DNA of 64,000 bases, from contig CAJQUW010011283.1 in assembly GCA_907163375.1 (NCBI GenBank), positions 124,001-188,000 on the forward strand, read 5' to 3'. The position numbers were made by a program, and so were the translations under genes. Positions 26,613 to 58,309 of the stretch are shown piece after piece; position 1 is the first letter of the stretch; each line of letters opens with the position of its first letter. This DNA comes from Prostheceraeus crozeri. Its lineage: Eukaryota > Platyhelminthes > Polycladida > Euryleptidae. The notes beneath the pieces are model-generated. The model had not been told where the DNA came from. It worked only from the letters and a program-made list of their open reading frames with translations, and did not search any database.

Positions 26613-26618
26613 CGAACA

Positions 26619-27882: not shown

Positions 27883-27918
27883 TTAATTATTTGCTTTACG
27901 CCAGTATTCGCCAGTAGT

Positions 27919-28864
27919 AGATCAATTCGGGGCTTGTTTTGTCTGGTTTTGAGAGAGAATTTCATTGAAAACCGCGGACAACGTCACTCAGAAGAAATTG
28001 CGTAATGAGGCTTGTGAGGCGGGTCAACCTGTGTTATACTTGCAGAGAACAAGTTTAGATCAATTCGGGGCTTGTTTTGTCTGGTTTTGAGAGAGAATTT
28101 CATTGAAAACCGCGGACATCGTCACTCAGAAGAAATTGCGTAATGAGGCTTGTGAGACGGGTCAACCTGTGTGATACTTGCAGAGAACAAGTTTAGATCA
28201 ATTCGGGGCTTGTTTTGTCTGGTTTTGAGAGAGAATTTCATTGAAAACCGCGGACAACGTCACTCAGAAGAAATTGCGTAATGAGGCTTGTGAGGCGGGT
28301 CAACCTGTGTTATACTTGCAGAGAACAAGTTTAGATCAATTCGGGGCTTGTTTTGTCTGGTTTTGAGAGAGAATTTCATTGAAAACCGCGGACATCGTCT
28401 CTCTGAAGAAATTGCGTAATGAGGCTTGCGAGACGGGTCAACCTGTGTGATACTTGCAGAGAACAATTTTAGATCAATTCGGGGCTTGTTTTGTCTGGTT
28501 TTGAGAGAGAATTTCATTGAAAACCGCGGACATCGTCTCTCACAAGAAATTGCGTAATGAGGCTTGTGAGGCGGGTCAACCTGTGTGATACTTGCAGAGA
28601 ACAATTTTAGATCAATTCGGGGCTTGTTTTGTCTGGTTTTGAGAGAGAATTTCATTGAAAACCGCGGACATCGTCTCTAAGAAGAAATTGCGTAATGAGG
28701 TTTGTGAGACGGGTCAAACTGTGTGATACTTGCAGAGAACAATTTTAGATCAATTCGGGCTTGTTTTGTCTGGTTTTGAGAGAGAATTTCATTGAAAACC
28801 GCGGACATCGTCTCTCACAAGAAATTGCGTAATGAGGCTTGTGAGGCGGGTCAACCTGTGTGAT
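27919..28864. repeat. 138-bp minisatellite array 1 inside BEL/Pao
   Basis: Six full units start at 27,919, 28,057, 28,195, 28,333, 28,471 and 28,609, and a partial one starts at 28,747. The landmark is AGATCAATTCGGGGCTTG. The last unit breaks off after GTGTGATA and joins pol segment A at the microhomology GATAACG. The unit is exactly 46 codons long, so minus-strand frames stay open across units. Confidence 0.95.
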
Positions 28865-30130: not shown

Positions 30131-30133
30131 TTT

Positions 30134-31513
30134 AGATCAATTCGGAGCTTGTTTTGTCTGATTTTGAGAGAGAATTTCATTGAAAACCGCGGACATCGTC
30201 TCTCACAAGAAATTGCGTAATGAGGCTTGTGAGACGGGTCAACCTGTGTGGTACTTGCAGAGAACAAGTTTAGATCAATTCGGGGCTTGTTTTGTCTGGT
30301 TTTGAGAGAGAATTTCATTGAAAACCGCGGACATCGTCTCTCAGAAGAAATTGCGTAATGAGGTTTGTGAGACGGGTCAAACTGTGTGATACTTGCAGAG
30401 AACAATTTTAGATCAATTCGGGCTTGTTTTGTCTGGTTTTGAGAATTTCATTGAAAACCGCGGACATCGTCTCTCACAAGAAATTGCGGAATGAGGTTTG
30501 TGAGACGGGTCAACCTGTGTGGTACTTGCAGAGAACAATTTTAGATCAATTCGGAGCTTGTTTTGTCTGATTTTGAGAGAGAATTTCATTGAAAACCGCG
30601 GACATCGTCTCTCACAAGAAATTGCGTAATGAGGCTTGTGAGACGGGTCAACCTGTGTGGTACTTGCAGAGAACAATTTTAGATCAATTCGGGGCTTGTT
30701 TTGTCTGGTTTTGAGAGAGAATTTCATTGAAAACCGCGGACATCGTCTCTCACAAGAAATTGCGTAATGAGGTTTGTGAGACGGGTCAACCTGTGTGGTA
30801 CTTGCAGAGAACAATTTTAGATCAATTCGGGGCTTGTTTTGTCTGGTTTTGAGAGAGAATTTCATTGAAAACCGCGGACATCGTCTCTCGCAAGAAATTG
30901 CGTAATGAGGCTTGTGAGGCGGGTCAACCTGTGTGATACTTGCAGAGAACAATTTTAGATCAATTCGGGGCTTGTTTTGTCTGGTTTTGAGAGAGAATTT
31001 CATTGAAAACCGCGGACATCGTCTCTCGCAAGAAATTGCGTAATGAGGCTTGTGAGGCGGGTCAACCTGTGTGATACTTGCAGAGAACAATTTTAGATCA
31101 ATTCGGGGCTTGTTTTGTCTGGTTTTGAGAGAGAATTTCATTGAAAACCGCGGACATCGTCTCTCGCAAGAAATTGCGTAATGAGGCTTGTGAGGCGGGT
31201 CAACCTGTGTGATACTTGCAGAGAACAATTTTAGATCAATTCGGGGCTTGTTTTGTCTGGTTTTGAGAGAGAATTTCATTGAAAACCGCGGACATCGTCT
31301 CTCAGAAGAAATTGCGTAATGAGGCTTGCGAGACGGGTCAACCTGTGTGGTACTTACAGAGAACAAGTTTAGATCAATTCGGGGCTTGTTTTGTCTGGTT
31401 TTGAGAGAGAATTTCATTGAAAACCGCGGACATCGTCTCTCACAAGAAATTGCGTAATGAGGCTTGTGAGGCGGGTCAACCTGTGTGATACTTGCAGAGA
31501 ACAATTTTAGATC
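30134..31513. repeat. 138-bp minisatellite array 2 inside BEL/Pao
   Basis: Ten units start at 30,134, 30,272, 30,410, 30,543, 30,681, 30,819, 30,957, 31,095, 31,233 and 31,371. An eleventh fragment at 31,509 leads into reverse transcriptase. One unit is 133 bases (deletion near 30,430). The minus-strand frame 30,413-31,504 (363 codons) is simply the 46-residue translation of the unit repeated. Confidence 0.95.
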
Positions 31514-33421
31514 AAAGAATCTGGTACGACAAGGGTACGAATTGTGTACGACGCCTCAGCAAAGACAAGGCGAACAAATCCTTCATTAAACGACGCCCTT
31601 TATCCAGGGACGGTATTATTGCAAGATATGTGTGGGATATTATTGAGATTTCGTATGTCGCCAATAGCAGTCGTCAGTGACATTGAAAAGGCTTTCTTGG
31701 CCATTAGACTTCAATTACCTGATCGAGATGCAGCACGATTTTTATGGATGAAGGATCCCACAAACGACAATTTACGAATAATGAGATTTACACGAATTCC
31801 CTTCGGTACCATTGCCAGCCCGTTTTTACTGAGCGCGACACTATTACTTCATTTGAGACAGTCGAGCACGGAAACTGCACAACTCATTCAAGACAATGTT
31901 TACGTCGATAACGTAATTATCGGAAAGGATAATAATGAAGACGCTCTTCAATTTTATGATGAAGCCAAATCATTGCTCGATAATGCAGGCATGAATTTAA
32001 GAGAATGGGGATCGAACTCACTGCAGTTCATGAACGGCATTCCAGTGAATGATAGATCGACAGAAGAGAAGTTAAAGGTTCTTGGAATTGCATGGGATAC
32101 AAGGCAAGACGAAATTCATATTCCGCAAATTGATTTTATGATCTCTAGTTCTCTTACCAAACGAGCTCTTCTACAAGCTACAGGAAATGTTTTCGACCCT
32201 TTAGGCCTCTTCGCTCCCATAACAATCAAAGGCAAAATCATTTTCCGACAGGCGAATGATAACGTAAATGACTGGGATGACAATCTTCCAGATGTTATTC
32301 AAAGTGAATGGAATAAACATGTTCATGAATTACAATTGATTCCAAGCATTAAATTACAGAGATTCATCGGGTTAAGCAATTATGAATCAGTACAGCTAAA
32401 CTGCTTTTGTGACGCCTCAGGACACGTTTACGCAGCGAGTGCCTATATTCGTTTCGAATCAAGTGAATGTGTAAAAACGAATTTGATATATTCAAAAAAC
32501 CGCTTGGCACCTTGCAAATCTATCACAATTCCTCGCCTTGAACTTCTAGGAGTTCTAATTGGAGCAAGAATGATCAAGTTTCTCACAAGGCAACTGCCTT
32601 ACACTTTCTCTCGCATAGTCTTATGGTCAGATTCGCAATGTGTCTTGCATTGGCTTCGAAGTAATAAACTTCACACAATATTTGTGGAAAATCGCCTAAA
32701 AGAAATAAGAAATGTCCCGAAAATTGAATTTCGTTATGTAAGAACACACGACAATCCGGCTGATCTCCCAACTCGAGGTGCCACATTTTCCGAGTTACGT
32801 AATGCCGAAATGTGGTGGAATGGACCCGCTTGGATTATAAAGGATGAATCGGAATGGCCAGCATTATGGCTTGAGAACAACGAACGAGAGCACGAACTAA
32901 AAGAAACTTCAGAGAAAACTGCTACGTCTCTTACTACTCATGTCTCAGAGCATCCTTTCGATATTGATCTCGGAAACTTTTCTTCGTTAGGAGATGTCCT
33001 GAAGGAGACGGCAACTCGACTGACTAACAATAGCGACCCATCGGCAAATGAGTTAGAAAGGGCTCGACAGGCATGGGAGCTGGCAGTTCAGAAGATGAGT
33101 TTACAAGAATTGAGAATAGCAACGCTCAACCACGAATCACGAAATGATAACGTCTCAAAACTTCGACTTTATATTGACGAAAACGATATACTTCGTTCAC
33201 GAGGTCGCATAGACAATGCTGAAGACATTCCGTATAACGCTACGTATCCGATCCTCCTACCAACTAATCATCCCTTCAAAAGATTAGTTATCAGTGATTG
33301 TCATGTCAAGTGTGGTCACTCAGGAGTAAGTCATACTCTGGCTGAACTCCGTCAACGTTATTGGGTAGTTTCTGGACGAAGGCAGGTCTCTAATATTTTG
33401 AGTAAATGTAAAAACGTTTAA
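31514..33421 (+). pseudogene. pol: pol segment B (reverse transcriptase, RNase H, start of integrase)
   Basis: The frame is open for about 630 codons. Reverse-transcriptase features are IVYDASAKT, VVSDIEKAFLAIRL (first catalytic Asp), RIPFGTIASPF and YVDNVIIG, where the usual second Asp of YVDD is Asn. RNase H follows (CDASGH, ELLG, SDSQ, NPAD). Next comes the integrase zinc-binding region (HxxxCGHSGVSHTLAELRQRYW, then a single CK). The frame stops at 33,421 before the second Cys and the catalytic core. The family role is DNA synthesis and integration of the element; this copy lacks protease and the integrase DDE core. Confidence 0.9.
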
Positions 33422-34317
33422 GCTCAGTAATCAGACACAAATTGAATTATGGAATGCAGATAAAATTGCTAAAGGTGAAGTCGCTGAGAAGGGCATTGAA
33501 TGGAAGTTTATAACGGAACGAGGTCCATGGATGGGAGGTTTCCATGAGAGGATGGTGAAAAGTGTGAAAATGGGACTTAGGAAAATGACGAACGGTTCTT
33601 TTCTAAGTAAGCGTCAGTTAGATGTTTTAATCTCCTGAGATTGAAGGAATACTTAATAACAGGCCATTGACTTACGTAGGGGTAGATATTAAGGACGGTC
33701 ACCCTCTAACTCCTAATAACCTGCTCGGCATTCGACATGATACAGCTCTCCCACAATCGCACCACGAGAACGACCCAGACTTTGAACCAGGAGGGCGATC
33801 GTCATCATCAAAGACTTTGATTAGTGTTTGGAGACGAGGAAAACATCTTCTGCAGCAATTTTGGTCTCGCTGGCGGCGAGATTACCTCAGTGGCCTACGA
33901 GAACGCAATGACTCTCACCATCACACTCGTGGGTGCATCAGGACCGTGCCATCTATCGGAAATACAGTTTTGATCATGGACAATAACCTTCCGCGAGGTC
34001 AATGGCGTATCGGCATGGTCGATAGCTTAATTCGATCACAAGGAGAGGCGGTTCGATCTGCCACGGTACAATTGGAGAATGGAAGAATCCTACATCGTCC
34101 AATCAAGCTGCTTGTGCCATTAGAATTCACGGAGGAGAAGCCGCGCGCGCACGAAATCCACGGCCCAACACATGACAAACGGGAGCCGCAATCCGATGCT
34201 CACGTAATGGAAGAAGAGGAGAAGATCTCTCGCCCTGTACGAAGGGCGGCGGCTATCGCTAATCTTCGAAATCGACAACTCCCTCGTCGGGAGTGTCGCG
34301 GGGCGAATATGGAGTGA
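33422..34317 (+). pseudogene. BEL/Pao integrase C-terminal part
   Basis: Fragments in two frames resume after the core deletion. First is a piece with ERGPWMGGFHERMVKSVK, typical of the end of the core, then NNRPLTY. From 33,667 comes the C-terminal region with PNNLL, W..DYL and a DUF5641-like GQWRIGMVDSL. The frame runs into the 3' LTR and stops at 34,315-34,317. A break near 33,640 separates the two pieces. The first two catalytic acidic residues are not present. Confidence 0.8.
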
Positions 34318-34631
34318 GGACATTTGACTGACGGAGCAGCTGAACTACTTATCTCCTAACTCTGGCGGTAGCTTGTTACATGTAGCTGTCAGAGTAATGA
34401 GGAGAATCAGTGATTGATGTGAAGGAGTGGCAGGAGCTGATAATTCTCGGGCTCTGCCAACAATCAACACTTCTCTCTGCACACCTCTAGCGGAAGGGAA
34501 GTGATTTAACTTACGCTTATTTGTGTACGGAACTACTATTAAGAGAAATCGTGGAATCGATGTTTTTATTACGAGTATAAAAATTTACTACAATATCACG
34601 AAATACGTTTGTTTTTGGCGAATACGCTACA
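34294..34631 (+). repeat. 3' LTR of the BEL/Pao element
   Basis: Matches 26,257-26,594. It is followed directly by CAGAT at 34,632-34,636. A short purine run (GGGAG) precedes it as a minimal polypurine tract. Confidence 0.95.
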
Positions 34632-37158: not shown

Positions 37159-38543
37159 ATGTACCGCAAACGATATTCACTGGATCATACTGTAGAATTG
37201 ATCTGCCTAAACAGTGACGACGAAATGGGTAATGTTAGTGAAAGCGACTCTGATGATTCAGATCAGTTTTCTGATCTTGATGACTCCGTCCTACCGCAGT
37301 TGACTATGTTGCCGCCCGATCCATCACCTGTTAATTTTACGTCATTCGCCAAAGCTGATTCTCCACCTATTCTCAGGGATTCCTTCGTGTCCTCCGCTTC
37401 CGGCTCCGCTGCCGTTTCTCGCCCGACTTCTGCTCAAATTGCCAGTCCGTGGAAATTTGTCGAAGAGGCGAACGATAGTCGCTCGGAGCTCCCACCTTTT
37501 CTCGGTGCCGCAGGTCTTCGAACAACATACGAAGAAGCAATGCTGTCAAACACAAGTGATGTTGACATTTGCAGAAGTGCTCTCAGTTTTTTATTACGGA
37601 TGAGTTAATCGAAACACTTGTGCAATTTACAAATAATCGTGCTTCGATCTATCTTCAAACAGAAGCTCTAAAGCCCCATTCTCGCTTTAGAAATTGGACT
37701 AATTGCTCTTTCGCCGAAATGAAGAAATTCATCGGTATTGTACTGCTGATGGGCGTCGTGAGGAAGCCTCAACTCACTGACTACTGGAGTACTGATGATT
37801 TAGTTTGTACTCCCTTCCTTCACTCCGAATTTTCTCTTACACGAGATCGTTTTCTCTTGATTTTACATTTCATTCGATTCGCAAATTATGAAAATCTCGG
37901 TGGCGAAGAGAATTGTCTTGGTAAGATTCAGCCATTTGTTAACTTGATTCGTTCGATTTGTAGGGATGTGTACAGGCCATCTCAGAATGTGACTGTGGAC
38001 GAGTCTTTACTTTTATATAAAGGTCGGCTGTATTTTAAACAGTACATACCGGCGAAGAGAAGGCGCTTCGGAATCAAAATTTATTTTTTATGCGAAAGTG
38101 ACTCTGGTTTTACATTGAACTTTTCATTTCACAATGTAAAAGCAGATCATGATCAGTTTGCCTCCGCTTGTTCTAGTCTCAGTGTATCGGAGCGAATCGT
38201 TGTTCATATTTGTGATGAACTTTTGGATTTAGGATACACTGTTTGGTGTGATAATTGGTTCAACAGTGTCAGGTTGGCCAATTATTTACTATCAAGAAGA
38301 ACGCTTTTAGTCGGCACTATTCGTCCGAACCGTGGTGTCCCGCCCATGCTTCAGGAGGCCGTGGTAAATGTAAGAGAGACAAAGTTTTTGCGCTCGGAAG
38401 ACTTGCTTCTATCTAAATTTTGTGATAGAAAGTCGTTTGGACAGAAAATTGTTTTTATGATTGATACAAAAAACAAAGTTGCTCTTTCCGATTGTCAGCG
38501 TGTTATAAAAGGTGGAAAGAGAATAATTTTTAGAAAGAGTACT
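37159..38543 (+). pseudogene. piggyBac transposase, N-terminal and central part
   Basis: The frame from ATG 37,159 encodes an acidic Ser/Asp N-terminus and a Pro/Ser region, then shifts frame near 37,590. The frame 37,569-38,543 holds the DDE core: AEMKKFIGIVLLMG, LTRDRFLLILHFIRFA, TVDESLLLYKGR (first Asp) and YTVWCDNWFNSVRLANYL (second Asp). It is cut at 38,543 by the LINE insertion, and the third Asp lies in the downstream part at 42,324. Transposases of this family excise and insert precisely at TTAA. Confidence 0.9.
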
Positions 38544-38673
38544 AGTAGTAGTAGTAGTAGTATGTGTTTATTCATTTGAAATGGAAATCATGCATTGCAG
38601 ATACACAGATGAAAATTACAGGGCTTGTACAGTATACAGAAGACATGCACAGTAGCTGTAGGAAATACATTAG

Positions 38674-41220
38674 TTAGCATATTTCTGCTAGGTTATGCAA
38701 AATAGAGCATCTGGGAATAAATGACAATTGGCGTTGTTGGGTTCTTGAAAAGGGGATAGAGACAGCGAGGGAATGTCGGGATCTTGAAAGTTTGGGGGGC
38801 ATGATTTTATGCAATAAATGTTTTGGTTCTAACATTTTTCTGAAAACTGTTAGGGCAGATCTTTCCCTTCTTAGGGATAGGGGGGTGAAGCTATCACAAC
38901 TGCACTTTGGTCCGCAAATAATTTTGTGAGAGCGTCGCCGAACCTTTTCCAATTTTTCAACATTAAGCTGGTTCAGTCCAACGAGGAGGGCAGCATTGTA
39001 TTCCAGCGTTGAAAGGACAGTAGCAATATAAATCTGAATGAGTTGGGACACAGAAAGGCATTGTTTTAATCGCTTTATGACATAAAGACGCTGGTTGGCA
39101 CGTTTGCATAAATTGTCTACAAAAGTATTCCAAGATAGATTTGAGTCATAAATGACTCCAAGAATCTTTATACTATTTACAAAATGAATATCACGAGGCA
39201 CTAAAGAATTCTGACTTTTAGCGATAAACATGCATTGGGTTTTTTCACAATTTAGTACTAGTCCATGTGAGTTACACCAGTCTTTTAAATGATTGATTTC
39301 GTCTCGAATTTGGAGTTCGATATCAATTGAACGGAAGGCAGGTAGAACAATCACAATGTCGTCAGCATATTTAGAAGTCAAGGCATGTGGGTGTAGAGCT
39401 TTGAATGATCTCATATGGGTGCAGAAAAGAAAGGGAGAAAGTTTTCCTCCTTGCGGAATACCTGAAGTAACTGGGGTGGTAGAGCTCGTACAATGTCCTA
39501 GCTTCACATATTGATGCCGGTTCACGAGAAGATCACTGCACCATAAAATAAAATCCTTGGGAAGATCAGCCTCGATTAAGGAGTTGATAAGACTCCCATG
39601 ATTAAGACGGTCAAATGCTTTGGACATGTCGAATGAAAGTAAAGCGACACCAGTACAATACAACTCGTCCAATGATAATGTTGTGAAGTCGTGAATGCGG
39701 ATGTTTGCGTGAAGCGTTGAGTAGGACGGTCTAAAACCAAATTGGTCGGTACCGTATGCGTCAATGAGAGATGGCTTGATCGAATCAATTACATATTGTT
39801 CGAGGACTTTTGAGAATGCAGGTAAGACCGATATAGGCCGGAAGTCATTATGTTTCTTTTTGGGGATTGGATTTACTCTAGCAATTTTCCAGGCATCGGG
39901 CACTGACTTGGATTCGAAGGATAGGGCGATAAGATGGGTGAGCGGAGCAGCTAAGACATCGCAGGCAGCTTTTACTAGGAATGGCGGGATGTCATCACTA
40001 CCGGAGGACTGGTTTGCTTTCAATTTTTGGAGTAAGGCATAGGTTCTTTCAACAGAGATATCAGTTTTCCATTCCTTTGCTTCAGCCTTTTCTTCAACTC
40101 CTCGCAAAATATCAGGCCAGTTAGGAGGAGGGGAGAAGTTCGATGCAAAACTAGCATTGATAGTCTCTGCTGCATCATTTGAAATTGAAAGACTATTTGA
40201 TTTGATATTATTCGTTGCACTGAGTACTTTCCATAATCCATTTGGTTTACCGTTTAGGCTTTCAATCCATTTCCTTTTTGCGCACTTCATTTCGCTTGTG
40301 ACTTTCTCTTTATAGTGATAATACAAATCAAAATTGCCTTTCCTGTAGGCATCATAGCGGAGGTTTATCATCATTTTCAATCTAGGTGTGATCCATGGTT
40401 TCTCTCGACCGGACATTCTTACAGTTTGTTGTGGGATGTTTTCCATAGCATTGTGCAAAATGCTGTAAAAAATATTACATTTTTCTTTGAAGGGAACATC
40501 CATTCCATAGAATCTTTGCCAAGGAAAGGCATCTAATGAATGACAAAATTTGGCAACATGACTATCACGAAAATCATAGACTTTAGCAAAATAAAACTTT
40601 TCCTTAGCTTTCTGCATGACATTATTGCAAGGTCTCAACGTAACAGTACCGTGATCAGAACCTCCAATTGGGGGTCCTACTTTGATAGGGGAGTTGAGAC
40701 ATACAGGACATGCTTTACAATAGTAGGATGAAAGGACAGAGTCAGACAGAAGGATTTTATCAAGAATATTACCTTTCCGTGTAGGACAGTTGACTACTTG
40801 CTTAAGATTCAAACTTCTCTCAATACAGTTTGTAGGGAATCTATTTAGGTCTCCAACAATCATGAGTTCAAAAGATGACAATGAATCGCAAACATAGATG
40901 ATAAAATCATTCACTTGCTGATAATTGGAGCTATTCAAATTCGGAGGAATGTATATGACCAGTAAAGCAATACTTATTGAATTAAACTTTATACAAAGAC
41001 ATTCAATAAAATCCAGATTATCAACTAAAGGTTCAACAGTATGAGGAATGTTGTTTCGTACGTAAGCACAAACGCCACCGCCTCTTCTGCCATCATGTCT
41101 GTCTTGTCTATGAAGACTGTATCCTGGAATTATTAGCTCGTCATCAGAAATATTTTCATGTAACCAGGTTTCACAGAGAGCAATAACATCGGGTACTCTA
41201 GCAGAAGAAATTACACACAA
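38674..41220 (-). CDS. LINE ORF2: endonuclease and reverse transcriptase
   Basis: About 848 codons. The N-terminal APE-type endonuclease has ALCETWLHE, GGGVCAYVRN, IVGDLNRFPT and GGSDHGTVTL. The reverse transcriptase has SFDMSKAFDRLNH, TSGIPQGGKLSPFLF and KYADDIVIVLP. A C-terminal Cys-containing region includes CGPKCSCDSF. The open frame extends upstream of 41,220 (NIQSL region) to overlap the end of ORF1 in another frame without an ATG, so translation may depend on reinitiation or frameshifting. The enzyme nicks target DNA and primes reverse transcription there. No stop or frameshift is seen, so this copy may be functional. Confidence 0.92.
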   Translation of the reverse strand: MCVISSARVPDVIALCETWLHENISDDELIIPGYSLHRQDRHDGRRGGGVCAYVRNNIPHTVEPLVDNLDFIECLCIKFNSISIALLVIYIPPNLNSSNYQQVNDFIIYVCDSLSSFELMIVGDLNRFPTNCIERSLNLKQVVNCPTRKGNILDKILLSDSVLSSYYCKACPVCLNSPIKVGPPIGGSDHGTVTLRPCNNVMQKAKEKFYFAKVYDFRDSHVAKFCHSLDAFPWQRFYGMDVPFKEKCNIFYSILHNAMENIPQQTVRMSGREKPWITPRLKMMINLRYDAYRKGNFDLYYHYKEKVTSEMKCAKRKWIESLNGKPNGLWKVLSATNNIKSNSLSISNDAAETINASFASNFSPPPNWPDILRGVEEKAEAKEWKTDISVERTYALLQKLKANQSSGSDDIPPFLVKAACDVLAAPLTHLIALSFESKSVPDAWKIARVNPIPKKKHNDFRPISVLPAFSKVLEQYVIDSIKPSLIDAYGTDQFGFRPSYSTLHANIRIHDFTTLSLDELYCTGVALLSFDMSKAFDRLNHGSLINSLIEADLPKDFILWCSDLLVNRHQYVKLGHCTSSTTPVTSGIPQGGKLSPFLFCTHMRSFKALHPHALTSKYADDIVIVLPAFRSIDIELQIRDEINHLKDWCNSHGLVLNCEKTQCMFIAKSQNSLVPRDIHFVNSIKILGVIYDSNLSWNTFVDNLCKRANQRLYVIKRLKQCLSVSQLIQIYIATVLSTLEYNAALLVGLNQLNVEKLEKVRRRSHKIICGPKCSCDSFTPLSLRRERSALTVFRKMLEPKHLLHKIMPPKLSRSRHSLAVSIPFSRTQQRQLSFIPRCSILHNLAEIC

Positions 41221-41294
41221 TTCGTCGTGCTTTGGACGTAGGGATTGTATGTTGGATAAAAGGATATAGGGGGGTACACAACATGAAAAACAAT

Positions 41295-42092
41295 TTATTG
41301 AAAATTCTTGATATCATCTTTCCTTGTAATTTTGTTTTTGTAGATGACGACGTCTTCCCCATTTCCTCTTCTGGTTTTCAATTCGTCACGAAGAGCCTTT
41401 TGTTCCTCCCTTTGTTTAAATGTCAGGTCATTATTTACAAATATGTGACGATATGAGTTCGAACTTCTGAGGGACTTAGAATTTTTCAAAATCGACATTT
41501 TCATTTCAGAGTCAGACAAAGTCACCCGCACAAGTCTTGATCTTTTGGAACTAGGCTTCCCGATTCTTGCTACAGAGATCACAACTGCAGAATGGTTGCC
41601 GAGCTCGCGAAAAATGTCTTTAACTTTCGTTTCATCGCTTTGTTTCCTCTCGTCGACAGATCCACCTTGGTTCTCTGCTAATCCAGATATAACCACATTC
41701 GATCGTCGATTCATCCGTTGCTCTAACTCATTTACAATGTCATCAGAGTCAAAGCTGATAGACTTGGTGGATTTAGATTTCTCCTTCAACTCATTGATTT
41801 GGATTTGGAGAGAATCGCACGTGGAGCGTACATTCTTGAGACTCTCCATGGTTTGGGATAACATTTCTTCAATTAATTTGAAATGACTATTCAGTTTGTT
41901 GTCCATAATCTCAACGATGACATCCTTAGTAGCATATGGAGTGGCCGTTTGTCCCGCTTCTGGGGCATTGCAATTATTAATAGCCTCTCTCAGGACTGAA
42001 ATCAATTGGTCTTTCGACAGCTTGGACATTTGGGCATTTGACATGCGTTTGACTAGTCCAAAATCAGGATGCGCCTTTTCTTTCTCACTCAT
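41295..42092 (-). CDS. LINE ORF1 protein
   Basis: 265 residues from an ATG, all open. The N-terminal half is a heptad-rich coiled coil (about residues 75-135). The second half begins NRRSNVVISGL, an RRM-like beta strand typical of ORF1 proteins, and continues through VVISVARIG to HIFVNNDLTFKQRE and GEDVVIYKNK. Related but broken versions lie at 3501-4389 and 61,291-61,905. The known role of such proteins is RNA binding and assembly of the retrotransposition complex. Confidence 0.85.
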   Translation of the reverse strand: MSEKEKAHPDFGLVKRMSNAQMSKLSKDQLISVLREAINNCNAPEAGQTATPYATKDVIVEIMDNKLNSHFKLIEEMLSQTMESLKNVRSTCDSLQIQINELKEKSKSTKSISFDSDDIVNELEQRMNRRSNVVISGLAENQGGSVDERKQSDETKVKDIFRELGNHSAVVISVARIGKPSSKRSRLVRVTLSDSEMKMSILKNSKSLRSSNSYRHIFVNNDLTFKQREEQKALRDELKTRRGNGEDVVIYKNKITRKDDIKNFQ

Positions 42093-42315
42093 GTTGTATA
42101 AAAGAAAAGTGACAAACTAGGACTTGCTGATGCGAATGACTAGGGGCTCGAACCAGAGTTGTTTAAAAAGTAACCAGCGATTGGATCCACACGACTATCA
42201 TCACACAGTTCAAGCGAGAAGGAAGTGATGCATAAATCGCGAGTCTTTGGGAAAAACGCGCGTAGGAGGGGCGCATGTCCGTGATGATCGAACAGCTGAT
42301 GGCAGCAGCAATACG

Positions 42316-47340: not shown

Positions 47341-48362
47341 TGTACCTTCACCACATAGAAACCAAAGCCCTTAGCAAATTATCTTGGAAACCTGAATTAT
47401 ATAAAAGATACATCGACGATGTCATCATAGGTCCTGTAGAATATGATGACCAAATTATTTCACAAATTGAAAATGAATTCAATAAAGTTACGCCTGCCAT
47501 TAAATTTACCACTGAAATAAACCCACCAGAACGCGGTTTAAATTTTCTAGATCTTACGATCTATACTGACAAACAAACCATTTCTTTCTCGTGGTTTCAG
47601 AAAACCTGTTATTCGAGGATAAATATGCAGAGTGACTCGTATGTCCCAGAACATATCAAAAATAATTTCGTTCAGTCTCGTCTAAAAGATATACAGAGTC
47701 TTTGTTCTACTGAGGAACACTACGTAAAATCACGCAATAAATTTCTAAATCAAATAGAAAAAATGGCCACAAAAAGAAAACTTTCAGGCAACCAAAAAAC
47801 AAAAAAAAAGAAAATAGACGATAAAATACAACCGAATTTGATACTTCCTTTTATTAATAATCAGTGCCATAGGAAATTAAGAAAACTTATGAATAAACAC
47901 AAGTTGAGAGGAAATCTAGTTAGTCAACCCAATAAAACGATTGCCAGTTACCTCAAACCAAAAAATGATAACCGCAACACATGTGACTGCGAAATTTGTA
48001 GAAAAATTGGCCCAAAATATATGTGCACAGATAAATATGTTGTATATCAATATACGTGTAAAACATGTAGAGAAAGTTATATTGGAAAGACTGCGAGACC
48101 GTTTAAAATCAGACACCGTGAGCACACATATGCGGTTAGGAATAAGAGTCTAAATAATGCTATAAGCCTGCACGCAAATCTTCATCAAATGTACGACATA
48201 GACAATTTTGATATCGAAATCCTCAGCAGAAAAACTAACAGCCGTGATATTACTATTGAAGAATGTAGAAGCATCAAATTAAATAAACCCAAGATCAATC
48301 GCAAGCAAGAAGTTATTGATTATCCGCTGATTAGCGGCACTCAAACCCGTGTTCAGTTTTGA
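47341..48362 (+). pseudogene. Truncated Penelope-like polyprotein (reverse transcriptase end, GIY-YIG)
   Basis: An open frame of about 340 codons with no proper start. It contains KRYIDDVIIGP (reverse-transcriptase YxDD motif), a basic linker and a C-terminal GIY-YIG endonuclease (VVYQYTCKTC, ESYIGKTARPFKIRHREH). One A fewer near 47,763 and one A more near 47,808, compared with the full copy, shift about 17 codons into another frame and back. It is part of the upstream pLTR, so probably not a protein source. Confidence 0.85.
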
Positions 48363-48589
48363 TTAATATTCTCCACACAACTGCACTGCACGTACAGCAG
48401 TCATGCATTTAAGTGAGAGACGCAGCGACTGGCGGTTTATTCCAACACACCGTGAAGAAGGCTGAAGGCCGAAAGATCTTGTGTGACCTGAACTATTTTA
48501 TTTTTTAACCTCTCACCAGAAAAATATACGGAGCCGCACTGAAAAGTGTTTTTTGTTCCTCTTTTATTTTAAAAAAGGGATAAAATCAT
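47341..48589 (+). repeat. Upstream pLTR of the Penelope-like element (5'-truncated copy)
   Basis: Matches 57,063-58,309 almost base for base, including the untranslated tail ending GGGATAAAATCA. It starts inside the reverse-transcriptase region. A partial copy placed directly upstream of a full copy is the pLTR arrangement of Penelope-like elements, where it supplies the promoter and 5' leader. Confidence 0.9.
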
Positions 48590-48591
48590 CA

Positions 48592-48796
48592 ATGCTCCCG
48601 ACAAAATTGGTGAAATACATACGTGATGCCACGGGAATCTCAGAAATTCATCGTGCGAACTCAACTCGGTTTGTCAACACACAACTGAAATATGCAAGAG
48701 TATTCTGCCACATACTATTCATCGGAAGCTGCTTGCAATCATACTGCATCCCTAAGTACATCAAGGGGAAGATCAACTTGGATGGATATATGGACA
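48592..48796 (+). CDS. Penelope-like polyprotein, N-terminal part
   Basis: From ATG 48,592, this segment encodes a short basic N-terminus, then a region with RFVNTQLKYARVFCHILF and LQSYCIPKYIKGK, as is usual upstream of reverse transcriptase in this family. It runs in frame to ATGGACA at 48,790-48,796, where the long-TIR transposon enters. The same frame resumes at ATGGACA 55,612-55,618. Confidence 0.8.
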
Positions 48797-49428
48797 TAGG
48801 GTGGAGCGAAAAAAACTTTTTTTCGAATTTGAAGATGCTTGGGGTCTCAATCTACGTGAACGGGTAATTTAGGGTGCCACACCAAATTTCATGGATGGTT
48901 AGAGGTCCCACACTGAGCTTGAAAATGATTAGGTAGGCCTAAAAATCGATTTTTTTCGATTTTTTTTAATTCAAAATTCAAAGTAGCTTGGGTCTAGAAT
49001 GATTCTGTTGGGTTATATGAACAACATATTCAAATTTGAGACGATTTGAAGAAGGTCTTCAGGTCCTACACTGAGGTCAAAAAGTCCCAAAATTGACAAA
49101 AAAATCAAAAATTTTCCAGTTTTTTAGATCAAGTGATACATAAGATACAATTGCGACGTAGCTTGGGGTTTGAAAACACTTATTGGGTCTGAAGCAACAA
49201 CATACTAAAATTTGAGACGATTTGAACAAGTTCTTCAGGTCCCACATTGAGATCAAAAAAAGTCCCAAAAATTACAAAAAAGCAAAAAAATTACAACATT
49301 TTAGAAATGATTTTGCTTAACGTCAAAATATGATGTAGCCTGGCGTTTGAAAACATACCTAAGGACTGAAGAAACAATATGGTAAAATTTGAGACGATTT
49401 GGGCATTTTCTTCTGGTTCAACAACGAT
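48797..49428. repeat. Left terminal inverted arm
   Basis: Pairs with 52,011-52,640 almost completely. Both arms contain A/T homopolymer-rich runs and a recurring GGTCCCACA/CTGAGG...GAGACGATTTGAA pattern about every 110 bases, so each arm is itself a degenerate tandem repeat. Confidence 0.9.
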
Positions 49429-49899
49429 TTCTAAATCAGAGAAGAAAATTAAAATATTTTGTTTATGTTTGCATTTTTTGAATTTGCGGGACTTTCATCT
49501 TTCCTTCAGCGGGATATCGATTTCTCGTGTTTTGATTTGTTATCTGGTGAGTATCGAAAATTCATACGTACAGTACAAGTGAATAGAGCTGAATTAATGA
49601 GAGTATAACTACCAATTGATGAAATGTTTACCGAGTAGAACAAGAAACTTATTAATGAGACTAATAAGAAGGTAATGCCGTATTATAGCTAGTTACTTGT
49701 ACAGTACGTGTAATCTCTGTGGCAATATATGGCGCTGCCATGTTTAGAAGATATTCAATACAAAGGCATACAGCCTTGTAGGTGCTGTCGCATGGCTGGT
49801 ACTCGTATGGCTAAACAACTGGAATGGCTTAGCATAAATTGAATGATCAACAGTGATTAGGCTACAACTCTTCTGTCCATGAATGATTCAGCAAAAAAA

Positions 49900-49979
49900 G
49901 CAGCGGGTGGGAATCGACCATAGGTCCAGTGGCGCTCGCTGATCAGTGACTTAGTGCACTCAGCTACCCACTCATCGCC
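49900..49979 (-). other. tRNA-like sequence (possible SINE head or tRNA relic)
   Basis: Read on the minus strand it has GGCGATGAGTGGG, then TAGCTGAGTGC (like an A box) and, about 45 bases on, GGTCGATTCCC (like a B box one base short). It then closes with CCCGCTGC. A folded tRNA is imperfect and the anticodon arm is not convincing. It may be a decayed tRNA gene or a tRNA-derived SINE piece inside the transposon. Confidence 0.35.
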
Positions 49980-50150
49980 AAGGTAGATGTAGTTTTTGGG
50001 ATCTTTTGGTTTTGGCTTTCTACTTCATCAAATATCAGTAATGTCTATCTTCTCTAAAAAATTACATCAGAATGAATTTTAATGTCATCATGCTATGATT
50101 GCTGATGTATGTATACAAATTGTGTGCAGTGTGCTTCACGCTCGCAGGTA

Positions 50151-51595
50151 ATGGCAAGTTCGTCGTCGGGGAACCTGCTCAGTACTCGAAGTGCACCGGC
50201 TACCGACAAAGGGTGATGTTCTCTTACATTATCAATGCGTTCGCTTTGACCTCAGAAAAGATGAAGGCTCGAAAAATGAACCGCAGGTCCAGGATATTCT
50301 ACCAATTTGTTGTTTGGATATCAAGAAGATATGGAATTGTGCTACCATTCCAGTTATTACAGAAGAAAGGATTATGTTCAAGTTGCGAGAGCTTCACAAG
50401 GAATACAATACTATTATAAAGCAGCCAACAGGACGAAAGGAATCCCCAGCTTACTTGAAGAGGTTGACACTATTCAAAAATGACTGCTCAAACTTGTTTG
50501 ACATTGCTGCTTGCAAGTGTTACATCAAAGATTCAAGCAATAAATGTCATTGTGATCTATCTCGAACGGCAAACCATGAAAAGCTTGTGCTAAATACGAA
50601 AATATCTCTCCTCTAGCGTTTTATTTTATTCCTTGCAGGTTCCAACAGAAGAAAAGGCCTTTTTACATGATCAGGGGACAACCCGGCAGATGGTGATTGG
50701 CGCACTGGACCGATCCACAACGAGAAGGAGGAACCTACGATCTAAAAGAAACGCGTATGAGAAAAGTCTAAGGTCACAGCCACAGTCTTCAAAGGATTCT
50801 ATCATGGATCTAGATATGGACTTGGACATTGATATGTCACTATCGGCTTATAATTCTGCTGATGAGGATGAAGCTGACATCTTGTGACATCCACGTTACG
50901 CATCGAGCCCTAAGTCGAATTCTGAACAATTCCGATTGCATCTTCCAACAGTGGCTTTATGTGCTGATCGCTATAGCGTACCGGATCGCCAGACAGCTGC
51001 TCTTGTTAGTGCTACTCTGCAAGATGTGAGCCAAGGCGATTCAGATACTTCCTCTGTTATTGACAGATCAAAGATAAGAAGAGAACGGAGTATGCTGAGA
51101 ACCAATCCGATTTCCAATACTTTTCATCAGCTGCGACAGAGAAGTTTAAGAGGTCTCTTCTTTGATGGAAGGAAGGATAAAACTTTATCCTGGGTAAAAG
51201 TTCAGGGCATTTCAAAGAAGGTCGTGTCAGTCGATGAGCACATCACACTACTTAAAGAACCAGGATCTCATTATCTCGGCCACTTTACGGCAGAAAGCGG
51301 AAGCGCGATCTCAATCAAGTCAGGAATTTTCGAATTTTTGACTGATGAAAATGATTGATCCATGGTGCCTGACGTCACGATCCGTGAACTCGCGAAGGAG
51401 AGCTCTCCAGAGGATCTCGCAGAACACATGCAATACCTTTGCCACTCACAGTCTGTTGAGCGTGGAGTCAAAATGACGACAGAGGCGGCTGCTTCCGTAT
51501 GTGGAGGTGATCGTCGATATGCGGTGATACAAACAAAGATTTTGTCTCGAAAGAAGATGGACAGGTTCAATACGAAGAAAGAGTTTAGACAGTAG
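50151..51595 (+). pseudogene. Uncharacterised transposon gene in the long-TIR element
   Basis: From ATG 50,151 a Ser-rich start runs into a frameshift near 50,210. The next part (50,191-50,616) has LRELHKEYNTIIKQ, LFDIAACKCYIKD and Cys pairs. After an acceptor-like TTCCTTGCAG near 50,638, one frame runs 50,639-51,595 with two TGA stops (50,885-50,887 and 51,356-51,358). It includes EEKAFLHDQGTTRQMVIG, ALCADRYSVPDRQTAALV, RGLFFDGRKDKTL and HMQYLCHSQSVERGVKMT. I recall similar sequences as a recurring uncharacterised family in invertebrate genomes but cannot name it. The middle seems deleted between KSGIFEFLT and PDVTIRELA. Confidence 0.6.
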
Positions 51596-52010
51596 CCAAT
51601 TGAGGCAGTGTTTTGGATTTTTCTGAACTGTACATAGTAGAAAATTGTCTCTAGTCTACGTGAAGTCAGGCCCACTGATTTCACGAGCATTGTCAGATAT
51701 GCATTGTTACGAGAAATTGTACATGTATTCAAAAGTTTTGATTTGGTACTATTGCAAAACAGATGATAATACTTGTTTTTTTACAATGGGCTTGGAAATG
51801 ATATTTTATGAATACTGAAAATGCAAATGAGTATGCAGGTACTTGTATGTTAGAAAATCGGTAATAGGCTAGTCCTTGTGCTGCATCATGGGTGTCTTCC
51901 AAGACAAGATAGATCCACATGCAATTTCTTATCTTACACAAGGCAGCTCAATTAATCAAAATATAATTAATTTATTCCTTTCAGATATCGATTTCTTGTC
52001 TAACTTTGAC

Positions 52011-52640
52011 ATCGTTGTTGAACCAGAAGAAAATGTCCAAATCGTCTCAAATTTTACCGTATTGTTTCTTCAGACCTTGGGTATGTTTTCAAACGCCAGG
52101 CTACATCATATTTTGACGTTAAGCAAAATCATTTCTAAAATGTTGTAATTTTTTTGCTTTTTTGTAATTTTTGGGACTTTTTTTGATCTCAATGTGGGAC
52201 CTGAAGAACTTGTTCAAATCGTCTCAAATTTTAGTATGTTGTTGCTTCAGACCCAATAAGTGTTTTCAAACCCCAAGCTACGTCGCAATTGTATCTTATG
52301 TATCACTTGATCTAAAAAACTGCAAAATTTTTGATTTTTTTGTCAATTTTGGGACTTTTTGACCTCAGTGTGGGACCTGAAGACCTTCTTCAAATCGTCT
52401 CAAATTTGAATATGTTGTTCATATAACCCAACAGAATCATTCTAGACCCAAGCTACTTTGAATTTTGAATTTAAAAAAAATCGAAAAAAATCGATTTTTA
52501 GGCCTACCTAATCATTTTCAAGCTCAGTGTGGGACCTCTAACCATCCATGAAATTTGGTGTGGCACCCTAAATTACCCGTTCACGTAGATTGAGACCCCA
52601 AGCATCTTCAAATTCGAAAAAAAGTTTTTTTCGCTCCACC
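52011..52640. repeat. Right terminal inverted arm
   Basis: Reverse complement of 48,797-49,428, ending CGCTCCACC at the piggyBac 2 junction. The missing outer bases CTA are found after piggyBac 2 at 55,609-55,611. Confidence 0.9.
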
Positions 52641-52659
52641 TTAACCCATTACCGCCCAA

Positions 52660-53056
52660 TGTTCCACATATGGAACAATTTTTTGAATCACAATTATAAG
52701 CATAAGAAATATTTTTAAGTATCATTTGAGCATGCAGATATTAGAAGCATGATGCAAATAAATTCAACAATGCCTGGTAAAGCATTTTGTTTCAATTGCG
52801 TTCTGTCCAAAGAAATTTGAAATTTCGGAAATTTTCAAAATTTATCACTGAAACTTGTTTTCCCACTTCTGTCCATAAAAAAATAAGGTAAGTCAAACTT
52901 TTCTCGGATTACAATTTCTACATTAGTCTGGTGACGTACAATACAATTATTTCATTTATCGTTGCTTTTCTGCGTTCATATTGAGTTTTAGATATGTTGT
53001 TCCATTTCTGGAACATTGGACACTGCATGTATTTTCAAAGTTCCAGTAATGGAACA
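52660..53056. promoter_or_regulatory. Iterated GTTCC-N6-GGAAC palindromes, left side of piggyBac 2
   Basis: TGTTCC-ACATAT-GGAACA (52,660-52,677), TGTTCC-ATTTCT-GGAACA (52,998-53,015) and AGTTCC-AGTAAT-GGAACA (53,039-53,056). The last two are followed by TTGGACAC. The matching right-end copy is at 55,459-55,476. These are candidate transposase sites. Confidence 0.6.
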
Positions 53057-53562
53057 TTGGACACTTAGGGTGTTACATTTTACATAATGCGCTAAATAGT
53101 CAATGTCAAATCTGGATGCTTATCATAGTAAGTTATGCAACACATTCGTGTAGTAGTTGTATAACTTGTAATTTTAACTTACAAGCAGGAACGGATCGCT
53201 CAGATGGTATTTACACAAAAAGGGCTACGCTAAGTAGACTTTCTAAACTGATACTAATCAATTGTTTCATATTGCATTTTCATTGAATCCTATTGTATTA
53301 TCATCTTCATTTGGGGTTACTACAGCTAATTTGTCTTTGCTTACTATAGCAAAAAAAGTTCACCACTGCATCCTGGCCCTGAGGTAGAGATGTTTGCACC
53401 TCTAACTACTGCGCTAAGGTACTTTACTAACACGAGCACAGTAGGAACTTACTTAATTGGAACCAATTTCACCCTCGTCTTACTTATCAATTGTTAGTAC
53501 TTACTCATTTTCTTAATTAATTGAGTACTGATTTAATTCCTGTCTATCTTTTTTTCAGACGG

Positions 53563-55433
53563 ATGCCAAAGAAACTATTTTCAGTCGAAGAAGCTGCGCA
53601 GCTATTGATCGAAAATTCTGACGAAGAATCTGATATTGATTTGGTAATTTTGCCACCTGAGTCCTCACAATATATCTCCGATGAAGATGACATAGCAGAG
53701 GATGATTTATTACCATCTAACATCAAAGATGTGCCAGGTTTGGTTGAAATCCATCAACGGTGGAGAATGCTCATTGCTCAATGCCACAACCAAAGCGTAG
53801 GAAAGTATCGCATCATTGGGAGAAAAGCTCTGCTTTTCGTAATTCGTTACCAGAAGCTGAAGTGACACCCATTGACGAAAGTTTCCCACTACTGGTGGAT
53901 AAAGATGCAATTGAATTATTTAGATTATTCTTTGATCCGACCGTTATAGATCTCTGCTGCACACAGACGAATTTGTATGCCCACCAACACTTAGAACATG
54001 GATTTCATATAAGTGAAAATGAAATTTTTCTCTCCTCAGTGGCTATCACAGTTTACCACAAGAACATCTATACTGGAGTACGAACGAAGATGTAGGAACA
54101 TCATTTGTCTCCGAAAAAATGTCAAAAAACGCTTTAAAGAGATCAAGCGTTTTTTTCATTTAGCCAACAACGCGTCCCTTGGCAATGATGACAAGATGGC
54201 AAAATTAAGGCCAATTTTAGAGATATTTCGAAAAAATATTCAGCAATTTGTATTCTTTTCAAGCAAATTGAGTCTGGATGAACAGATGATACCATATTAT
54301 GGTAGAAATAATGCAAAAATGTGCGTCAAAGGCAAACCGGTGAAATTTGGATATAAGGTCCTGGCTTCGTCATGCGCTTATCCGTTCGATTTCGAAGTCT
54401 CTACTGGGAAGAAAATTGATTCCGAATTACCACTTGGAGAGTCTGTCGTTCAAACATTGACACAGTGTCTTCCAAATAAAAGTGAACATATAATCTACAT
54501 GGACAGATTCTTTTGTTCAACGAAAACGTTCAGACAATGTAGAGAAGACGGATTGCGTTGTACAGGCATTGTAATGGAATCTCGAATTGAAAAATGCCCA
54601 ATTATGTCTAAAGCGGCAATGAAGAAGCTTCCTCGAGGTAGTCACATTGAATTTTCAAGCGATGAAGTTGTTGTTTGCCAGTGGAACGACAGTCGTCCAG
54701 TAGTTGCCATCAGCAATTTCGAATCTGTGAATCCCGTTCACAGTGGTAGTCGTTGGAGTAGAGCCGATCGAAAACGCATACCAGTGCCCATCCCCCATTT
54801 GATTCATAATTACAATCAATGTATGGGCGGCGTGGATCTTCTTGATCGACTCTTGAGCGATTATCGGCCTAAGCTAAGAAATAAGAAATGGTGGTGGAAT
54901 ATTTTTGCCAACTTTTTGAATATGGCCGTCGTCGCTGCATGGCGACTTCATCGTAGCTTGAAAGGAGAAATGAGTCACCTTCAATTTCGGAGGTAAGAAT
55001 AAATAGAATAACAAACAATACATTTAGGCCTACATGTGTTGTGACTACGTAGGGGGTGAATAGTCACACGTTGATAACATATACATGTATAGGCCTAAGC
55101 CTGGAAGGATTTTCTTCTATAAAAGGCCTGGTTTAATTAATAGGGATCAACATAACTAGATAAACGTGCAATGACCAATAGTAAAAACTACATTTGTCTT
55201 ACAGGGCGATTGTTCGATCACTCATGGCAAAGACACCGAGTAAGCTACAACATCCAGGACCCAGCAGGACCCCTTCTCAAACTGAAAGAACAAGCAATTT
55301 TCACTCTGATAAACAATTATCTCATCTGATAAACAAGGACATTGTAAAGTATGCAAAAAAGAACACAAAACGAAAGTGCTCCACTTGTGGTGTCCTTCTT
55401 CATATTGACAGTTTCTCAAATTTTCATTCTTAA
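53563..55433 (+). pseudogene. piggyBac transposase 2, frameshifted, with an intron
   Basis: From ATG 53,563 (after a pyrimidine-rich CAG that could be an acceptor) an acidic N-terminus runs to about 53,760. The reading then changes frame there and again near 54,030. The core frame, 54,013-54,992, has LSLDEQMIPYYGR (first Asp), IIYMDRFFCSTKTF (second Asp) and NYNQCMGGVDLLDRLLSDYRP (third Asp). A donor AG/GTAAGA at 54,992 and an acceptor TTACAG at 55,204 join it in frame to 55,205-55,433. That part ends in a short Cys tail (KCSTCGVLLHIDSF) smaller than a full Cys-rich domain. All catalytic Asp residues are present, but the frame breaks make this copy probably inactive unless they are unrecognised introns. 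Confidence 0.85.
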
Positions 55434-55458
55434 GCATTATATAGTCAGAAGTGTCCAA

Positions 55459-55476
55459 TGTTCCACTTACGGAACA
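55459..55476. promoter_or_regulatory. GTTCC-N6-GGAAC palindrome, right side of piggyBac 2
   Basis: TGTTCC-ACTTAC-GGAACA, preceded by GTGTCCAA (the inverse of the TTGGACAC that follows the left copies). Same motif as at 52,660-53,056. Confidence 0.6.
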
Positions 55477-55611
55477 TCAATGTTTATGATACAGAATTTA
55501 TTTTTTTTCTAATCGTCATTAGTTTGTAGTTGCTTCAGACGGTAGAAGTTTTTGTATCAAAGAAAATTTTAAAAAATAATTGTTTTTCTATTCATGGGCA
55601 GTAATGGGCTA

Positions 55612-58083
55612 ATGGACAACCCAAACATCCAAAGAAAATCGACATCACTGATGATGGAAATGATGAGGTATGATCTGCAAGAACTCCACAAACGAAGATT
55701 CCAGCTAAACATGGAACGGGGATACGAATGGCTCAATCTTCTAAGAATGGAAGACCAACAACTATCCAAGTATATCCTATTGAACACAAAGACGGTGGTA
55801 CACAAGGAAGAAAAAAACATCTTCGAACGACACCGGAAAAAATGGTGGAATCTGTGTGAGTTTGAATATCCAGTTAAGCAACATGACTATACGTGCAAAT
55901 ATGAACCTAATTTTCCTCATTATAAAACTTCGAAACTGAACACGGACATAAGTAACTTAGAACATAACCAAAATGCGATTGAACTAGGGTCTGACGGTGT
56001 TCCTAAGAACATCCAATCTTTTCTTGATAAAGGTCCGACTTATCATTTACCATATCTAATTGATAAGAAATTCTGGAATAAAGTTGATGAAGATTTTGAG
56101 GCTTATTTTTACAAGTTAAGGTGGAGCATTAACTTAGAAAATAAGAACCAAAATAATTTGCATATCCCGTTTGACAGACATACGTGTAAATTACCAAATA
56201 AATTAACGGAAAGCCACGAATTTCAATTAAAACAATTTTATGTTGAAGCGAAAGAAATTATTACCGCTGAAGCCAAAAGCTTGAAATCTAATGAACACAG
56301 TAAAATGATTCGTAACATGTGCAATACTGCAAAAAACTATTTGGAAAATAATGACCTGGTTTGTATGAAAACCGACAAAACCAATAGGCTGATAATTTGT
56401 AAGCAGGATAATATAAAAGAACAAACTAAAAAGATCTTGTCAGATGAAAATACTTACCAATTAGTAAAGAAAAGCAAAAATAACAGTTTAGAAACTCAAG
56501 CGAATAAAATAATCAGAACTACTCTGAAACACAGTACTCTGACCAACTCAAAATACCAAAACGAAAAGCTATTAACTAGTGGTAGCCATCCAGCAAAATT
56601 TTTTACTTTGGTGAAAGACCACAAGGAGACCATAGACGGTCAGCTCCCGCTAAGACCGATAGCTTCTGTTCACGGTACTCCAGTGGACAAGATAGACTGG
56701 GTGATTTCAAAAATTCTGGGCCAAATCTTGCAATTCATACCGGCACATCTTGATAGTGCGAAAACACTAACTCAATATTTGCGAGACATTGACATTTCCA
56801 AAATGAGTAAGCCTACATTCATCAGCCTAGATGTTCAACAACTGTACCCCAGTATACCTATCGATGAAGGTATTGAGTTAGTTATGAAAACTGTTACTGA
56901 GTTTTATACTAAAATAGATAACTTCAGTATAACTCTAAACCAAATTGAAACGATGATGAAATTCATGTGCTATAACTACGAAATCTCTTATGACAACAAT
57001 ATCTATCGTCAAATTAAAGGAGTACCTATGGGATGCAGGTTTGCCCCTACGTTTGCGATAATCTACCTTCACCACATAGAAACCAAAGCCCTTAGCAAAT
57101 TATCTTGGAAACCTGAATTATATAAAAGATACATCGACGATGTCATCATAGGTCCTGTAGAATATGATGACCACATTATTTCACAAATTGAAAATGAATT
57201 CAATAAAGTTACGCCTGCCATTAAATTTACCACTGAAATAAACCCACCAGAACGCGGTTTAAATTTTCTAGATCTTACGATCTATACTGACAAACAAACC
57301 ATTTCTTTCTCGTGGTTTCAGAAAACCTGTTATTCGAGGATAACTATGCAGAGTGACTCGTATGTCCCAGAACATATCAAAAATAATTTCGTTCAGTCTC
57401 GTCTAAAAGATATACAGAGTCTTTGTTCTACTGAGGAACACTACGTAAAATCACGCAATAAATTTCTAAATCAAATAGAAAAAAATGGCCACAAAAAGAA
57501 AACTTTCAGGCAACCAAAAAACAAAAAAAAGAAAATAGATGATAAAATACAACCGAATTTGATACTTCCTTTTATTAATAATCAGTGCCATAGGAAATTA
57601 AGAAAACTTATGAATAAACACAAGTTGAGAGGAAATCTAGTTAGTCAACCCAATAAAACGATTGCCAGTTACCTCAAACCAAAAAATGATAACCGCAACA
57701 CATGTGACTGCGAAATTTGTAGAAAAATTGGCCCAAAATATATGTGCACAGATAAATATGTTGTATATCAATATACGTGTAAAACATGTAGAGAAAGTTA
57801 TATTGGAAAGACTGCGAGACCGTTTAAAATCAGACACCGTGAGCACACATATGCGGTTAGGAATAAGAGTCTAAATAATGCTATAAGCCTGCACGCAAAT
57901 CTTCATCAAATGTACGACATAGACAATTTTGATATCGAAATCCTCAGCAGAAAAACTAACAGCCGTGATATTACTATTGAAGAATGTAGAAGCATCAAAT
58001 TAAATAAACCCAAGATCAATCGCAAGCAAGAAGTTATTGATTATCCGCTGATTAGCGGCACTCAAACCCGTGTTCAGTTTTGA
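55612..58083 (+). CDS. Penelope-like polyprotein: reverse transcriptase and GIY-YIG endonuclease
   Basis: Resumes the frame left at 48,796. Without the nested insertion the whole frame would be about 889 codons with no stop. Reverse-transcriptase motifs: AKFFTLVKDHK, LRPIASVHGTP, FISLDVQQLYPSIP (first Asp), KGVPMGCRFAPTFA and KRYIDDVIIGP (YxDD), then GLNFLDLTIY. A basic Lys-rich linker follows, then Cys pairs (CDCEIC, CKTC) and the GIY-YIG endonuclease VVYQYTC...ESYIGKTARPFK...REH with a late Glu region (TIEECRSIKL). The 3' half (from 57,063) is the downstream pLTR. In the known family the endonuclease and reverse transcriptase act together in target-primed copying. Confidence 0.93.
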   Translation: MDNPNIQRKSTSLMMEMMRYDLQELHKRRFQLNMERGYEWLNLLRMEDQQLSKYILLNTKTVVHKEEKNIFERHRKKWWNLCEFEYPVKQHDYTCKYEPNFPHYKTSKLNTDISNLEHNQNAIELGSDGVPKNIQSFLDKGPTYHLPYLIDKKFWNKVDEDFEAYFYKLRWSINLENKNQNNLHIPFDRHTCKLPNKLTESHEFQLKQFYVEAKEIITAEAKSLKSNEHSKMIRNMCNTAKNYLENNDLVCMKTDKTNRLIICKQDNIKEQTKKILSDENTYQLVKKSKNNSLETQANKIIRTTLKHSTLTNSKYQNEKLLTSGSHPAKFFTLVKDHKETIDGQLPLRPIASVHGTPVDKIDWVISKILGQILQFIPAHLDSAKTLTQYLRDIDISKMSKPTFISLDVQQLYPSIPIDEGIELVMKTVTEFYTKIDNFSITLNQIETMMKFMCYNYEISYDNNIYRQIKGVPMGCRFAPTFAIIYLHHIETKALSKLSWKPELYKRYIDDVIIGPVEYDDHIISQIENEFNKVTPAIKFTTEINPPERGLNFLDLTIYTDKQTISFSWFQKTCYSRITMQSDSYVPEHIKNNFVQSRLKDIQSLCSTEEHYVKSRNKFLNQIEKNGHKKKTFRQPKNKKKKIDDKIQPNLILPFINNQCHRKLRKLMNKHKLRGNLVSQPNKTIASYLKPKNDNRNTCDCEICRKIGPKYMCTDKYVVYQYTCKTCRESYIGKTARPFKIRHREHTYAVRNKSLNNAISLHANLHQMYDIDNFDIEILSRKTNSRDITIEECRSIKLNKPKINRKQEVIDYPLISGTQTRVQF

Positions 58084-58309
58084 TTAATATTCTCCACACA
58101 ACTGCACTGCACGTACAGCAGTCATGCATTTAAGTGAGAGACGCAGCGACTGGCGGTTTATTCCAACACACCGTGAAGAAGGCTGAAGGCCGAAAGATCT
58201 TGTGTGACCTGAACTATTTTATTTTTTAACCTCTCACCAGAAAAATATACGGAGCCGCACTGAAAAGTGTTTTTTGTTCCTCTTTTATTTTAAAAAAGGG
58301 ATAAAATCA
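57063..58309 (+). repeat. Downstream pLTR of the Penelope-like element
   Basis: Nearly identical to 47,341-48,589. It includes the last 340 codons of the polyprotein and about 226 bases of 3' tail. Sequence after GGGATAAAATCA differs between the two copies, which fixes the element end. Confidence 0.9.

Follow-up and report, generated by a model that had tools for sequence, protein, structure and literature searches.

The window, by which we mean the whole 64,000-nucleotide stretch of Prostheceraeus crozeri DNA analyzed here, contains a decayed gene framed by long inverted repeats, and the question that it raises is whether this element represents a new kind of transposon or a damaged member of a known one. 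We conclude that it is very likely an internally deleted, non-autonomous copy of an hATm-type DNA transposon; that it represents a novel type is improbable. The features of the locus are collected in Table 1.

Table 1. Features of the transposon copy, its insertion site and the neighboring mobile elements (window coordinates).
Feature	Positions	Strand	Remarks
5' part of interrupted Penelope-like ORF	48589..48796	+	Left limit set by the end of the direct repeat (predicted)
Left target-site duplication ATGGACA	48790..48796	.	Eighth base absent, compared with 8 bp in relatives
Left terminal inverted repeat	48797..49447	+	Tip TAGGGTGGAGCG; four internal units of ~150-177 bp
Exon 1 of decayed transposase gene	50152..50586	+	0 stops in 144 codons; predicted extent
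Predicted intron GTGCTAAAT...TTGCAG	50587..50638	+	Splice joint predicted from the frame
Exon 2	50639..51595	+	In-frame TGA at 50885-50887 and 51356-51358
Internal deletion joint	51355..51358	+	Site of the second in-frame TGA; ~877 bp lost compared with L137
Right terminal inverted repeat, as far as piggyBac	51992..52640	-	Last three bases TTA (52641-52643) or CTA (55609-55611)
piggyBac element	52641..55612	+	TTAA left, CTAA right; DDE_Tnp_1_7 match in ORF 54013-54996
Right target-site duplication ATGGACA(A)	55612..55619	.	Identical seven bases, beyond piggyBac
Remainder of interrupted Penelope-like ORF	55619..58083	+	Reverse transcriptase and GIY-YIG motifs recognized by eye

The two arms, 48797-49447 (651 bp) and 51992-52643 (652 bp), are identical at 639 of 652 positions (98%) and surround a stop-bearing gene. 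This bears out the long-armed, decayed DNA transposon of the initial annotation, although the arm length given there, 632 bp, was too short. Counted by eye from the alignment, the arms differ by 12 substitutions and one gap, and nine of the substitutions fall within the innermost ~90 bases. The left tip reads TAGGGTGG. The internal periodicity first noticed by inspection was also found with Tandem Repeats Finder (177-bp period, 2.2 copies), and a unit-start motif recurs in the left arm at 48837, 48986, 49161 and 49338, giving four units.

Because a piggyBac element occupies the exact right tip, the right-hand copy of the target duplication is shifted ~3 kb further on, to 55612 (7-bp copy 55612-55618). 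When piggyBac is skipped, the seven bases that follow CTA (55609-55611) are ATGGACA, matching the bases to the left of the first tip; the right-side duplication reads ATGGACAA, and the left side is without the final A. Joining the flanks gives GGATATATGGACAACCCAAAC, and the surrounding frame stays open across 924 codons. A 111-nt query across this join recovered the uninterrupted target site from the same genome in four matches on three other contigs, three of them at 100% and one at 99%; the window itself gave two partial matches, which have seven query bases in common. The four uninterrupted sites, together with this overlap, show that the window element is a true insertion and that piggyBac arrived later.

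The transposon interrupts the ORF of a Penelope-like host, where it duplicated its target. The host appears to be Penelope-like from by-eye reverse transcriptase and GIY-YIG motifs and from a tandem partial copy; a Pfam search of its ORF returned only GIY-YIG, under its cut-off (E 0.92). The partial copy, truncated and lying upstream (47343-48588), is 99.6% identical to the 3' part of the element itself (57064-58309), with three substitutions and two gaps in 1247 positions. If both copies arose in one event, the Penelope-like insertion would be recent, with the transposon and then piggyBac younger still. The locus is thus a nested example, in which a copy of the hAT kind lies inside one mobile element and was struck by a third.

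The ORF within the tip piggyBac matches DDE_Tnp_1_7 in Pfam (E 2.5e-48), and the ends of the element read TTAACCCATTACCGCCC and GGGCAGTAATGGGCTAA. Its flanks are TTAA (52641-52644) and CTAA (55609-55612). The transposon tip followed by the duplication would be expected to read CTAA, so piggyBac may have entered at CTAA, a non-standard site; a single substitution before or after insertion explains the mismatch equally well. Four GTTCC...GGAAC palindromes (52661, 52999, 53040 and 55460), within ~500 bp of the piggyBac ends, are possibly transposase-binding repeats of that element. Elsewhere in the window, 37566-38576 and 38677-42116 (- strand) hold a second piggyBac-type transposase (DDE_Tnp_1_7, 3.8e-55) adjoining a LINE-like ORF with endonuclease and reverse transcriptase.

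Related copies were collected from the best-scoring arm matches (best 41 of 178 candidates). Among the 33 loci examined, 25 had paired tips; of the remaining eight, six had a single tip and two had neither. At the unpaired loci some stretches were cut, and some locus pairs share one contig around the same element. Four paired copies have an incomplete tip, and in the other 21 both tips are complete. Both tips are TAGGGTG in 19 of the 25 paired copies. Perfect 8-bp duplications flank 18 of the 25, that is, 18 of the 21 with complete tips, and every one of these 18 carries T at position 2 and A at position 7 (nTnnnnAn). The three remaining complete-tip copies have imperfect duplications (L149 and L150, 6/8; L159, 3/8). 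The ATGGACA(A) of the window fits nTnnnnAn with one base absent on the left. The 7-bp duplication initially proposed is therefore literally present in the window copy, its right half displaced by piggyBac, but it is not the rule among relatives.

The seven bases of the window copy would also be accounted for if the element belonged to a hAT7-like lineage in which duplications of 7 bp are the norm; fungal hAT7 families are described in PMC12730594. Given the 8-bp duplications of the complete-tip relatives and a base after the right copy that fits the lost eighth base, this is almost certainly not the explanation: for the family the hAT7 reading is refuted, although the window copy alone may have had a single 7-bp event.

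The gene of the window copy extends from ~50152 to 51595. Its first part is stop-free over 50152-50585 (144 codons), a result reached by 1 of 2000 shuffles, and exon 1 is 70-89% identical to other copies over the longest matching stretches. Across 50640-51592 the best frame has two stops in 317 codons, and none of 2000 dinucleotide shuffles was as good. Exon 2 has kept the FFDGRKD aspartate motif and has lost the GCDST motif. The initial annotation had predicted a complete gene containing a missing middle portion, and such a gene was found: in an alignment the full-length relative L137 has ~877 bp more than the window gene, and this middle carries the GCDST, CMLHINELPL and SRWLT motifs. Since the window's own deletion is absent from the other 24 copies mapped on L137, it may have arisen in place.

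Of these 24 copies, L136, L138, L151 and L162 align whole as one piece, and eight copies of ~2.7-3.0 kb (L140-L143, L152, L158, L163 and L168) form a deletion class with a gap from ~1613 to 3499-3505 (L137 positions) and a nearly identical joint. Seven of the eight have perfect 8-bp duplications, all different in sequence, and the eighth has a truncated tip. The different targets indicate that this class has moved, presumably mobilized with the enzyme of intact relatives. An unbroken exon-2 frame of 619-626 amino acids is found in 4 of the 20 loci kept from a genome search with the C-terminal half of the window protein; a rough pN/pS among six copies ranges from 0.55 to 0.94, too mixed for use.

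The protein belongs to a wider family, as the initial annotation had supposed, and this family has many copies in its own genome. In a search with the C-terminal half of the window protein the best 150 of 480 candidates were scored, several of them per copy, and these include identity groups of ~58, 46, 42 and 34%. The lineage at 34% protein identity is represented by L189, which has an intact ORF of 753 amino acids between internally repeated arms that are 98% identical. Its 8-bp duplication, read by eye, is TTGTACAG, and it lies beside tips that are TAGCGTAGG rather than TAGGGTG. In L190, which represents a third lineage, inverted arms were found along with an interrupted gene, but no tips were seen. 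A three-way alignment, in which one row was assembled from exons of two copies and another is L190 joined by hand, shows common blocks FxxRKDxTL, VGCDxTxVNT, CxLHxNELPLxHL, RWLT and HxENIL. Two aspartate motifs ~75 residues apart and candidate glutamates are common to the three lineages; the first D is H in L173.

PMC6004678 puts forward hATm, with >74 Repbase entries, as the fourth hAT family; its termini are TAGGGTG/CACCCTA, its duplications 8 or 9 bp long, and two of its elements have arms of 417 and 575 bp. The hAT-hATm class is also used for annotation in the Hydra genome paper and, apparently, in those on the giant isopod, Daphnia and other invertebrates. The tips, 8-bp duplications and inverted repeats of several hundred base pairs reported for hATm are shared by the lineage of the window copy. 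We therefore filed the DNA element as hATm-type from its ends, duplications and arms. On the same grounds, with the nTnnnnAn pattern of the 8-bp duplications, we find no support for the undescribed superfamily proposed in the initial annotation.

Hermes, a hAT element of the house fly, likewise prefers 8-bp nTnnnnAn targets and has repeated subterminal sites (PMC10368747). It differs in its 17-bp inverted repeats and BED domain: the arms here are 651 bp long, and no Pfam match to a BED zinc finger was found in the proteins scanned, the 753-residue ORF of L189 among them, the N terminus of the window lineage being uncertain. Long arms with internal repeats and a literal 7-bp duplication could also point to Galileo of Drosophila, a P-superfamily element for which long arms (internally repeated in some copies), 7-8 bp duplications and many incomplete copies are described in PMC4168063. 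Galileo, however, has a THAP domain, and its consensus target in D. willistoni is given as GTATTAC; the relatives here show 8 bp with the T2/A7 rule, and the proteins scanned gave no THAP or P-transposase match in Pfam. We consider a Galileo-like origin very improbable.

A further alternative is a separate, undescribed superfamily whose ends came to resemble those of hAT by convergence. Proteins of 471, 264, 753 and 619 amino acids were compared with Pfam by hmmscan (E up to 10 requested; the HMMER filters discard most matches above E ~0.1). Within that limit, none of the four gave a match to PF05699, the hAT dimerization domain, and there was no credible match at all, the best being DUF4423 (E 0.048) and Androgen_recep (E 0.3), both under cut-off. 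Four window fragments gave only SduA_N, also under cut-off (E 0.061). The PDB yielded no credible relative to single queries (best E 0.09) or to a profile, and NCBIfam, whose models are prokaryotic, no match. PF05699 is frequent in the genome itself: among 12096 candidates the best 150 were scored and pass the cut-off, and by eye none of these 150 places is a copy examined here. Since they are only the best 150 of 12096, the direct protein scans carry the argument.

These results favor a separate superfamily, but duplication length, the T2/A7 rule, the seven-base tips and the arm length all agree with hATm. There are also resemblances to hAT in the RW motif and in a CxxH located after the second D. 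A separate superfamily with convergent ends seems to us quite unlikely.

Compared with hATm, the family departs in one respect: PF05699 is reported in hATm-6 (PMC6004678) and was not detected here. Either the C terminus has drifted past the Pfam profile, or this is a different branch that shares the same ends. Along the second line, the transposase may come from an extensive animal family of several lineages that the Pfam hAT profiles do not cover, although the ends and duplications are of the hAT type. Such a family could be a deeply diverging sister of hAT or a superfamily of its own; this broader reading we regard as unlikely, and the hATm-type assignment of the DNA element is preferred.

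Wider searches were made as well. In viral contigs no true relative was found, whether the query was a fragment from the window, one of two motif patterns, one of three further sequences or a three-lineage profile; an 18-residue match at L127, in phage-like DNA, was taken as chance. The same was concluded for a GTDB scan with at least 119 pattern loci and a best tblastn E of 0.012. Literature searches by the motifs of the protein family, which could not target protein sequence and left most journals outside their coverage, found no paper on it.

For the hATm-type element a mechanism may be proposed, in which the ends and duplications are observed and the other steps (binding, catalysis, a function for the arm units) follow the example of hAT enzymes. 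We picture the full-length protein as a DD(E) transposase with an RNase H fold, for which the repeats of the long arms may serve as binding sites; cleavage would take place at the TAGGG tips, which would then be joined to target DNA 8 bp apart. Copies like that of the window would be mobile only if an intact relative supplied the enzyme.

Other repeats occupy the rest of the window. A very large inverted repeat (1-2099 and 12485-14701) has arms of ~2.1 kb that are 99% identical and ~10.4 kb apart. An array of ~26 units of roughly 318 bp spans 16661-24918; beside it, ORF 24749-25471 (- strand) has weak similarity to tyrosine recombinases (Phage_integrase, E 0.00038, under cut-off), and ORF and array together are perhaps Crypton-like. 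A BEL/Pao-type retrotransposon with direct terminal repeats and Peptidase_A17 (26254-34590) is interrupted by 138-bp tandem repeats at ~27780-28907 and 29995-31531.

The window copy illustrates that one nested copy, taken alone, may be misleading, as one lost base makes a hAT-type 8-bp duplication look like one of 7 bp. More generally, a family of proteins in which no Pfam model was detected is linked to a type of transposon through its ends and its target rule, which allows members of the family in this genome to be labeled transposase. The intact 753-residue ORF of L189 offers a concrete protein with which to ask whether such enzymes are true hAT transposases.
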